This document shows, in pieces, positions 19,232-22,369 of a stretch of DNA of 34,245 nt; within the stretch, counting starts at the first letter, position 1; the number at the start of each line of letters is the position of its first letter. The DNA comes from Gammaproteobacteria bacterium. GTDB lineage: Bacteria > Pseudomonadota > Gammaproteobacteria > SZUA-140. Both the position numbers and the translations under genes were made by a program. Under the pieces are notes generated by a model that worked only from the letters and a program-made list of their open reading frames with translations, ran no database searches and was not told the origin of the DNA. The stretch covers positions 1 to 34,245 of the forward strand of contig QIGV01000240.1 in assembly GCA_003230085.1 (NCBI GenBank), written 5' to 3'.

Positions 19232-19657
19232 ATGATCTGGGTTAAAGCCTGGCACATGATCTTCATGGTCACCTGGTTTGCCGGTCTGTTTTATCTACCT
19301 CGTTTGTTCGTCTATCACGCGCAGAGCGAGGACGCCATCAGTGATGAGCGCTTCAAGGTCATGGAGCGTAAATTGTTTTATGGCATCATGACGCCCGGCG
19401 CAGTACTGACTATCGGGTTGGGGATCTGGATGCTGGTGGATTATGCCTGGGCGGCGTATTCGGCGGCGGGGTGGTTACACACTAAAATGATGCTGGTGGT
19501 GGTGCTGGTCGGGTACCATGTTTACTGTGGTAAACTATTACTGGATTTCAAGGCTGGGCGCAATCGATATAGTCATCGTTTTTATCGCTGGCTGAATGAA
19601 ATTCCAGTGGTTTTTCTTGTTGTCATCGTGATCCTTGTCGTCGTTAGACCCTATTAA
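19232..19657 (+). CDS. hemJ: Protoporphyrinogen IX oxidase, HemJ type
   Basis: 141 residues, the family length. Four membrane helices; the N-terminus MIWVKAWHMIFMVTWFAGLF carries the conserved His8 and the WFAGLFYLPRLFVYH block, and a conserved Lys sits in WLHTKMML. HemJ oxidises protoporphyrinogen IX to protoporphyrin IX in the late haem pathway, in the inner membrane, passing electrons to the respiratory chain. It is the form used where hemG and hemY are absent. No clear Shine-Dalgarno precedes ATG 19232. It lies 116 bases after the CLC gene and 438 before priA, so it is probably its own unit. Confidence 0.93.
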   Translation: MIWVKAWHMIFMVTWFAGLFYLPRLFVYHAQSEDAISDERFKVMERKLFYGIMTPGAVLTIGLGIWMLVDYAWAAYSAAGWLHTKMMLVVVLVGYHVYCGKLLLDFKAGRNRYSHRFYRWLNEIPVVFLVVIVILVVVRPY

Positions 19658-19805
19658 CACCGAGGTATTCGTAAGCTACTGGCCCTGGAATACCGGCTGG
19701 CCTTCTAAATCTTATGCACAAGCTGGCTGAACTGTTGGTTTTCTGACACATTTGCTGGGACATAATCCGACTTATAACGACTATAGATATCTATCCTATT
19801 GTTTT

Positions 19806-19825
19806 TTAAATATTATTAAATATTG
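19806..19825. repeat. AT-rich tandem 10-mer (possible unwinding element)
   Basis: TTAAATATTA is followed directly by TTAAATATTG, preceded by a T-run and followed by another T-rich stretch to about 19833. The tandem AT-rich repeats resemble the 13-mers of a DNA-unwinding element. They lie about 65 bp from the DnaA-box cluster. Confidence 0.55.
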
Positions 19826-19890
19826 TCTTTTTTGCCATCAAAATGCCAGAACGTCAATAGCCACGCGGCTTTAGACTATATGACCCCATT

Positions 19891-19925
19891 TCATCCACAG
19901 AGTTATCCACAGGAATTGTGGAAAA
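19891..19925. promoter_or_regulatory. Cluster of three DnaA-box-like sites
   Basis: TCATCCACA (19891-19899, plus), the consensus TTATCCACA (19903-19911, plus), and TTTTCCACA (19925-19917, minus strand). All three share the TCCACA core and are 3-5 bases apart. The arrangement is typical of oriC-type or DnaA-controlled regions. That it acts as an origin is inference. Confidence 0.6.
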
Positions 19926-20095
19926 CTACCAAACTCACGCCATGACAATAGCTTAGCCATTATATGTAAGACAATTCCTAATTTATTGCCCTATTGACAG
20001 ATACTCAATCAAAATTTGAGCCGCTAAAAGATCGCCCTAATTGCCAACGTGGAAAACCATAAGATACGCGCCGCGGGTGCGGCATACTATCTTCC

Positions 20096-22369
20096 ATGAT
20101 ACAGTCACGTCCCATGCACAAGATACAGGGCATCATCAAGGTCGCCGTCCCTGCGCCCCTGTATCAAATTTACGACTACCTGATCCCCAAATCCTGCAAC
20201 ATAGAGACTATCCAGCCGGGCATGCGCGTTCGGATACCATTCGGGCATGCCACAAAGATAGGCATGATCGTACAAGTTGTCGATACCGCTGATACGGCAA
20301 CTTACCGCATCAAACACGCTTTTGAAATACTGGACAAGCGCCCTATTATCCCGCCTGGATCACTGACACTGTTCAGGTGGGCGGCCAAATATTACCATCA
20401 CCCCCTTGGCGAGGTCATATTCAGCAGCATTCCGCCGCCCTTGCGACACGGCAAAGCTGAAGCAAAGATGATGTCATATCTCTACCTTCTGACAAACGCA
20501 GGTAAGGAAATCACCAGCACTGATCTTCCTCGGGCACCGAAACAGGCTGCCATGCTGGCATTTTTCCGGCGCCACCCCAAAGGGGTACGCAAGGAACAGT
20601 TATGTGAATATGATGCCAAGTGGCGAGCAACGCTGCGATCCCTGACCACCAAAGGGTGGGTCACGGCTGAGGAGCACACTGCACCGCCCCCTGCCATTAC
20701 AGAACCCGACAAGACTTACCACCCCTTCAGGCTTAACCTGCCACAAACCCGTGCAGTCGATGCGGTCTGTGCCCATCTGGACAGATTCAGTCCATTTCTT
20801 CTCAATGGGATAACCGGCAGCGGAAAGACCGAAGTCTATTTACACATCATTGACCGGGTGATCTCCAGGGGAAAGCAGGCCCTGGTACTCATACCGGAGA
20901 TCGGCTTGACCCCGCAGTTGGTTGCCAGATTCACGGAGCACCTGGGTGTGCCACTGGCGATATTGCATTCCGGCCTCAGTGATAAAGAGCGGCTGCATGC
21001 CTGGCTGATGGCCCGCGATGGCAATGCCCAGGTCGTCATCGGCACCCGCTCTGCCATTTTTACACCGTTGCCCCAGCCTGGCATTTGCATCATTGATGAA
21101 GAGCATGACCCCTCATTTAAACAACAGGAGGGTTTTCGATATCATGCGCGCGACCTGGCAGTAATGCGGGCAAGACAGGACAATATACCGATTGTACTGG
21201 GCTCAGCGACGCCTTCCCTGGAGAGCCTGCATAATGTCTCCCAGGAACGCTACCATCACCTGTTGCTGAACGAGCGCATTGGGAATGCGCAGCAACCCGC
21301 CATACATTTGCTGGATATGCGATCCGGCAAACATAAAAACAATTTATCTCCAGCCCTTCTAACTACTATCAAGTCTCATCTGGACCTGGATAACCAGGTC
21401 TTGTTGTTCCTGAACCGGCGTGGTTATGCCCCCACCCTGTATTGCCAGGCTTGTGGCTGGATCGCTCTGTGCCAACGCTGTGATGCACACATGATCCAGC
21501 ATCAAAGCATGCAAAGAATACGCTGTCACCATTGTGATGCGCAGCAGAGTATCCCTACCCAATGCCCCCAATGTGGTGGGCAGGACCTGCACGCCCTGGG
21601 ACAGGGAACTGAACGTATTGAGGAGGCCCTGCAACTACAGTTTCAAGATGTCGAAATTATTCGTTTCGACCGTGACAGCACACGCCGCAAAGGGTCAATG
21701 CAGGCACTGCTGAAACGTGTACAAGCCGGACAACGACAAATATTACTTGGCACCCAGATGATTGCTAAAGGTCACCACCTGCCAAATATCACCCTGGTAG
21801 GCATCCTTGATGCCGATCAAGGACTGTTTGGTGCAGATTTCCGTGCCATTGAAAGAATGGGGCAACTCATCCTGCAAGTTGCCGGGCGAGCTGGACGGGC
21901 TGATAAGCCCGGGGAGGTGCTAATCCAGACCCATTTTCCCGAGCACCCTGCGTTTCATGCACTGCTGACTCACGATTATCACGGCTTTACCACCAAGCTA
22001 TTGGAAGAGCGCCAGCTTGGTCACCTACCGCCCTATGCTGCTCTAGCACTGTTCAGAGCGGAAGCTGCCGATAAAATCCATCCAGCACGCTTCCTACAGG
22101 ATGTACACCAACAGGCTTCTGTACTGTCTTCTGCCCTCTGGGGTCAATGCCCACAGGGATACGCAGGAGACCGTGTTCGTTTGCTGGGTCCGGTTACCCC
22201 TCCTATGGAAAAACGAGCGGGCCGCTATCGCGCCCAATTATTGCTACAATCCGGTAAACGAGGATGCTTGCATAGTCTGCTCAATGAACTGGTACCCACC
22301 ATTGAAGAGCTTTCATCGGCCAGAAAGGTGCGTTGGTCACTGGATATCGACCCCCAGGAATCGTTTTAG
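20096..22369 (+). CDS. priA: Primosomal protein N', replication restart helicase
   Basis: 757 residues. The N-terminal fork-binding domain (VPAPLYQIYDYLIP) and winged helix are followed by helicase lobes: Walker A GITGSGKTEVY (about 239-249), DEEHDPSF (about 333), GSATPSLES and the C-lobe QVAGRAGRADKPGE. Eight cysteines in four CxxC-type pairs (CQACGW, CQRCDA, CHHCDA, CPQCGG; about 450-500) bind two zinc ions. PriA recognises stalled forks and reloads DnaB. Two in-frame starts, 20096 and 20114, both lack a good Shine-Dalgarno; the second would give MHKIQG. The gene heads a priA-argS-SPOR cluster common in this class, and lies beside a DnaA-box cluster. Confidence 0.97.
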   Translation: MIQSRPMHKIQGIIKVAVPAPLYQIYDYLIPKSCNIETIQPGMRVRIPFGHATKIGMIVQVVDTADTATYRIKHAFEILDKRPIIPPGSLTLFRWAAKYYHHPLGEVIFSSIPPPLRHGKAEAKMMSYLYLLTNAGKEITSTDLPRAPKQAAMLAFFRRHPKGVRKEQLCEYDAKWRATLRSLTTKGWVTAEEHTAPPPAITEPDKTYHPFRLNLPQTRAVDAVCAHLDRFSPFLLNGITGSGKTEVYLHIIDRVISRGKQALVLIPEIGLTPQLVARFTEHLGVPLAILHSGLSDKERLHAWLMARDGNAQVVIGTRSAIFTPLPQPGICIIDEEHDPSFKQQEGFRYHARDLAVMRARQDNIPIVLGSATPSLESLHNVSQERYHHLLLNERIGNAQQPAIHLLDMRSGKHKNNLSPALLTTIKSHLDLDNQVLLFLNRRGYAPTLYCQACGWIALCQRCDAHMIQHQSMQRIRCHHCDAQQSIPTQCPQCGGQDLHALGQGTERIEEALQLQFQDVEIIRFDRDSTRRKGSMQALLKRVQAGQRQILLGTQMIAKGHHLPNITLVGILDADQGLFGADFRAIERMGQLILQVAGRAGRADKPGEVLIQTHFPEHPAFHALLTHDYHGFTTKLLEERQLGHLPPYAALALFRAEAADKIHPARFLQDVHQQASVLSSALWGQCPQGYAGDRVRLLGPVTPPMEKRAGRYRAQLLLQSGKRGCLHSLLNELVPTIEELSSARKVRWSLDIDPQESF

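Follow-up and report, generated by a model that had tools for sequence, protein, structure and literature searches.

In Escherichia coli, DnaA-reactivating sequences (DARS) are stretches of DNA that recharge the replication initiator DnaA. A different locus, datA, stimulates the hydrolysis of DnaA-bound ATP, together with IHF. To our knowledge, the recharging of DnaA has been studied almost only in E. coli. The two elements of this species, DARS1 and DARS2, have equal box spacing, with DnaA box I in the opposite orientation to boxes II and III (PMC5742627), and the head-to-head pair formed by boxes I and II is a hallmark of DARSs that is essential for their function (PMC10380432). In the case of DARS2, position in the chromosome matters (PMC5010248). 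DARS-like sequences in "many proteobacterial species" are mentioned in a passage of PMC10380432 that cites the 2009 DARS paper; therefore, the novelty of a further such element is limited.

The DnaA boxes between hemJ and priA

The window, that is, the whole 34,245-nucleotide stretch that was analyzed, carries the features listed in Table 1. A sequence-only reading of this DNA had described three 9-mers and tandem repeats in a 438 bp noncoding gap (19658-20095), and all of these were confirmed when the sequence was checked. Its inventory of three boxes was correct but incomplete, since it missed the fourth box, TTATGCACA. Within the window, a single DnaA box is perfect, the TTATCCACA that starts at 19903; the 2.9 Mb assembly has 35.

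Table 1. Features of the hemJ-priA region, in window coordinates
Feature	Position	Strand	Remarks
hemJ, left neighbor	19232..19657	+	TIGR00701 above cut-off
DnaA box IV, TTATGCACA	19712..19720	+	179 bp upstream of box III
IHF-like site, TATCCTATTGTTT	19792..19804	+	2 mismatches to TAANNNNTTGATW
AT-rich tract, TTAAATATTA (19806-19815)/TTAAATATTG (19816-19825)	19806..19825		Flanks the IHF-like site; repeats not conserved
Degenerate Fis-like site, GTCTTTTTTGCCATC, at -66	19825..19839	+	G1 and C15 kept; 3 mismatches to GnnYAnnnnnTRnnC
DnaA box III of the DARS-type core, TCATCCACA	19891..19899	+	Placed relative to box II as in E. coli DARS1/DARS2
DnaA box II of the core, TTATCCACA	19903..19911	+	Perfect consensus; near-invariant in 44 class-wide elements
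DnaA box I of the core, TTTTCCACA	19917..19925	-	Head-to-head with box II across 5 bp
Downstream motif, ACAATAGCTTA	19945..19955	+	Family consensus aCAA..agTTA; about 20 bp past box I
priA, right neighbor	20096..22369	+	NF004067 and TIGR00595 above cut-off

Read in the order III-II-I, the boxes of the window core start at 0, 12, and 26 (steps of 12 and 14 bp), with box I on the other strand. For comparison, the cores of DARS1 (bioD-uvrB gap) and DARS2 (rppH-mutH gap) were taken from E. coli MG1655. In both, the boxes start at 0, 14, and 26, which is the reverse complement of the window core in spacing, order, and orientation. The window core has the spacing that is common to DARS1 and DARS2, and its box I is opposite to II and III, with the head-to-head arrangement of I and II. 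Among the options offered by the sequence-only reading, that of a secondary DnaA-binding site was right in kind.

The DARS1 boxes are TTATCCACT, TTATCCACA, and TAATACACA. Their geometry is identical to that of the window core, but DARS1 lacks a good match to the IHF or the Fis consensus at the positions conserved in the elements described below. A core at the DARS1 locus, next to uvrB, was also found in Rodentibacter (L081); it has a perfect IHF consensus at -100 and a box IV at -180, both of which are missing in E. coli DARS1.

GC skew and the origin of replication

A chromosomal oriC was one of the functions proposed for the gap. An oriC, or a second origin, would account for DnaA boxes clustered beside an AT-rich tract, a feature that the locus shares with bacterial origins. 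However, no GC skew switch was found at 19.8 kb, and the cumulative skew falls monotonically through the whole window. In the same genome, dnaA lies on another contig (C29) together with dnaN, recF, and gyrB, and the skew minimum of that contig, at 31.5 kb, coincides with the dnaA-dnaN gap. A relative (G005) has both loci on one 105 kb contig, with dnaA at 46.0 kb and the priA element at 82.9 kb. There, the skew reaches its minimum at 45-48 kb and is still rising beyond the element, 37 kb away from dnaA. Because the window has no skew switch and the minimum is at dnaA-dnaN (own genome) or dnaA (G005), the oriC option is refuted, and we consider an origin at this place extremely improbable. At the skew minimum in the dnaA-dnaN gap, five DnaA boxes that match the consensus fully or nearly so form a cluster (C29:31339-31491), which is likely part of the real origin region.

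The proposed unwinding element did not hold up either. The TTAAATATT tandem repeats are absent even in a genome of the same genus, and in others; in relatives, only an AT-rich tract beside the IHF-like site is retained at their position. A more fitting reading of the "unwinding element" is that of AT-rich DNA flanking an IHF-like site with a degenerate sequence. The locus differs from a bacterial oriC in lying off the skew minimum, away from dnaA-dnaN and mnmG, and in having no conserved unwinding repeats.

Conservation of the core and of its accessory sites

The search of the window's own genome for the three-box geometry, with up to three mismatches, revealed the perfect copy in the window, a copy near polA on contig C25 with one mismatch, and two more with three. 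The polA core (G000:C25:15919-15953; L035 6920-6954) lies about 700 bp upstream of the start of polA; its box IV is located at -175, and its Fis site at -66 matches the consensus perfectly. Twenty genomes of the order, from seven genera, were compared, and conservation was scored where the hemJ-priA gap was readable; G004 was left out of the scoring because its box II lies at the predicted start of the priA match. The priA element, comprising the three-box core and the fourth box, was present in every relative with a readable gap. The polA element was found in most readable relatives and was missing in some. The ACAA..AGTTA motif located about 20 bp past box I occurs in both the priA and the polA elements of the order, and it matches no site known to us.

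To describe the distribution across the class, 185 Gammaproteobacteria genomes, drawn evenly by family, were searched for the core pattern with at most one mismatch. At least one core was present in 146 of the 185 genomes (263 sites, mostly one or two per genome). The reversed pattern, used as a control in the same 185 genomes, had no matches, so the three-box pattern is far above chance. A strict-core scan of 85k genomes yielded at least 117 loci. Among the matches listed with titles, almost all belonged to Beta- and Gammaproteobacteria. Of all the loci listed, 37 were beside priA, nearly all in the same orientation. Other recurrent neighbors, judged by sequence only, look like citrate synthase (gltA), the exonuclease VII large subunit (xseA), and TtcA.

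In 80 sampled regions upstream of priA, a core with no more than five mismatches across the three boxes was found in the same orientation in 45 and in the opposite orientation in one. Controls with altered spacing gave 39 of 560, partly by still catching two of the three real boxes. The 9-mers, whose conservation upstream of priA the sequence-only reading had proposed as a test of an origin, are conserved there, but as a DARS-type core. We found no report of DnaA boxes upstream of priA in the literature searched.

We aligned 44 class-wide priA elements on the core only (negative positions are relative to the core). Outside the boxes and the adjacent short spacers and flanks, the strongest columns were G(-66), A(-62), T(-56), and C(-52), and these are the fixed letters of the Fis consensus GnnYAnnnnnTRnnC (PMC4245941). 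The exact consensus occurred between -95 and -20 in 22 of the 44 elements, against 2.6 in shuffles; with at most one mismatch it occurred in 34, and in 27 exactly at -66. The IHF consensus TAANNNNTTGATW, with up to two mismatches, was present at -96 to -101 (about -98) in 36 of the 44 elements, with an sd of 0.9 bp; equally wide control windows never gave more than 8 of 44. Of the 44 elements, 37 had a box IV between -165 and -189, in most cases at -175 to -181.

This module with Fis-like and IHF-like sites was found across most of the Gammaproteobacteria families tested, often just upstream of priA. Among the matches listed from the 85k-genome scan, two or more of the IHF, Fis, and box IV features accompanied 74 of 109 cores, and 44 of the 73 cores not next to priA, against 2 of 484 random places. 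Since the accessory sites also surround cores that are not at priA, the module is a unit and not part of a priA promoter.

Sites for IHF and Fis beside the core, a mark of the DARS2 subtype, have a strong consensus at fixed places in the relatives and class-wide, and are degenerate in the window copy. Most relatives have zero or one mismatch to the IHF consensus at the IHF-like column (the priA copy of G014 matches it perfectly), and the Fis-like place in relatives, for example GATCAAAATTTGATC in L009, can have a perfect Fis consensus. In the window, both matches are degraded (two mismatches for IHF, three for Fis; Table 1), so the reliance of this copy on IHF and Fis is uncertain.

A DnaA-regulated priA promoter had also been proposed; DnaA bound here would control the transcription of priA (or hemJ). 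The place of the core, about 170 bp upstream of priA in the window, and the orientation that most lineages share agree with such a role. However, the distance from the core to the priA start ranges from 9 to 431 bp (sd 66; 44 elements), whereas the IHF site inside the module is fixed to about 1 bp; the sites keep their spacing to one another and not to priA. The same module lies about 640-1300 bp upstream of polA and beside the unrelated gltA, xseA, and ttcA-like genes, and no sigma-70-like promoter on the + strand of the hemJ-priA gap scored above shuffles. This option has become less likely, and we regard it as unlikely.

In complete genomes, the distance from the priA core to dnaA was about 115 kb (G150), 137 kb (G143), 171 kb (G140), 248 kb (G038), 254 kb (G053), 164 kb (G063), and 516 kb (G154). 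With the E. coli oriC taken to be near 3.93 Mb, DARS2 would lie at a distance of about 0.96 Mb from it and DARS1 at about 1.5 Mb. The origin-proximal place at priA contrasts with the mid-arm places of these two elements. The priA-rpmE gap of E. coli contains no consensus DnaA box. The origin-proximal place next to priA offers a direct way to test how gene position bears on the timing of initiation.

Proposed activity and arrangement of the elements

These comparisons make it very probable that the window cluster is a DARS-type element, which by analogy with E. coli would promote the exchange of ADP for ATP on DnaA. Several lines of evidence support the assignment. The order, orientation, and spacing of the core are the reverse complement of DARS1 and DARS2; two cores occur in the window's own genome and mostly one or two per genome elsewhere, with no control matches; conservation of the core at priA extends from the order to 45 of the 80 genomes sampled in the class; the IHF (-98) and Fis (-66) columns are conserved; and the window's own genome has genes for DnaA, Hda, Fis, and IHF-alpha. 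This genome also encodes HU, and a gene for IHF-beta was not clearly identified in its assembly, which is 81% complete.

If the element works as in E. coli, ADP-DnaA would bind boxes I, II, and III, where DnaA on box I would meet DnaA on box II head-to-head and DnaA on box III would stabilize the complex. DnaA in this complex would have a weaker grip on ADP, and the apo-DnaA would depart and take up ATP, enlarging the initiation-competent pool. IHF and Fis bound between the core and box IV may bend the DNA and so make the process dependent on the cell cycle and the growth phase. The nucleotide exchange, its control by IHF and Fis, and the effect on initiation are all inferred from E. coli.

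High-affinity boxes and an IHF-like site would also be expected of a titration or datA-like site, which would soak up or inactivate DnaA and delay initiation. According to the literature, E. coli datA is likewise a noncoding DnaA-box cluster with an IHF site, and the elements studied here are origin-proximal as datA is (37 kb in G005, often 0.1-0.25 Mb in complete genomes of the class). A fixed geometry is not required for titration, but the spacing and orientation of these boxes hardly vary, and they correspond to those of the DARS cores. Going by its published description, datA has other boxes (2, 3, and 7) and the opposite activity. We judge this alternative quite improbable.

As a DARS-type element, the module resembles DARS2 in its noncoding location and in that its IHF and Fis sites lie to the side of box III, with IHF in the same orientation, in addition to the shared core (offsets 0, 14, 26, box I opposite to II and III). 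A point against the assignment is the accessory order, which is core-Fis-IHF-box IV here (Fis -66, IHF -98, box IV near -178) and core-IHF-Fis in DARS2, which has its IHF consensus at -87, an exact Fis consensus at -125 (the essential Fis), and extra boxes farther out. The module also adjoins priA, not mutH. We lean slightly towards the view that Gammaproteobacteria, with Betaproteobacteria counted among them, usually have a DARS in the form of a stereotyped module about 215 bp long, made up of box IV at -178, IHF at -98, Fis at -66, and the core. On this view, many families would carry a copy near the origin at priA, genomes would usually have one or two strong cores, and DARS1 and DARS2 of E. 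coli would be products of rearrangement or reduction. The fixed layout of Fis, IHF, and box IV and the link to priA were not found in the literature searched, which is weak evidence of absence. A layout that is fixed over distant families indicates the accessory sites that matter, namely a single Fis site at -66, a single IHF site at -98, and a fourth DnaA box, and it makes DARS findable in any sequenced gammaproteobacterium.

Two genomes of the same family (G060 and G200) had seven core matches each, compared with one or two in most genomes, and an expansion of the element in this family is possible. One core match outside Proteobacteria, in a contig titled Clostridia (L087), has no IHF, Fis, or box IV features and is probably due to chance or to a mis-binned contig. 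In L169, two cores (2840/2852) overlap on opposite strands and form a palindromic box array. Tandem cores about 410-600 bp apart were present in L073 (821/1256), L080 (5948/6358), L145 (2048/2646), and L025; in L073 (Duganella) and L080 (Noviherbaspirillum), the tandem cores precede priA.
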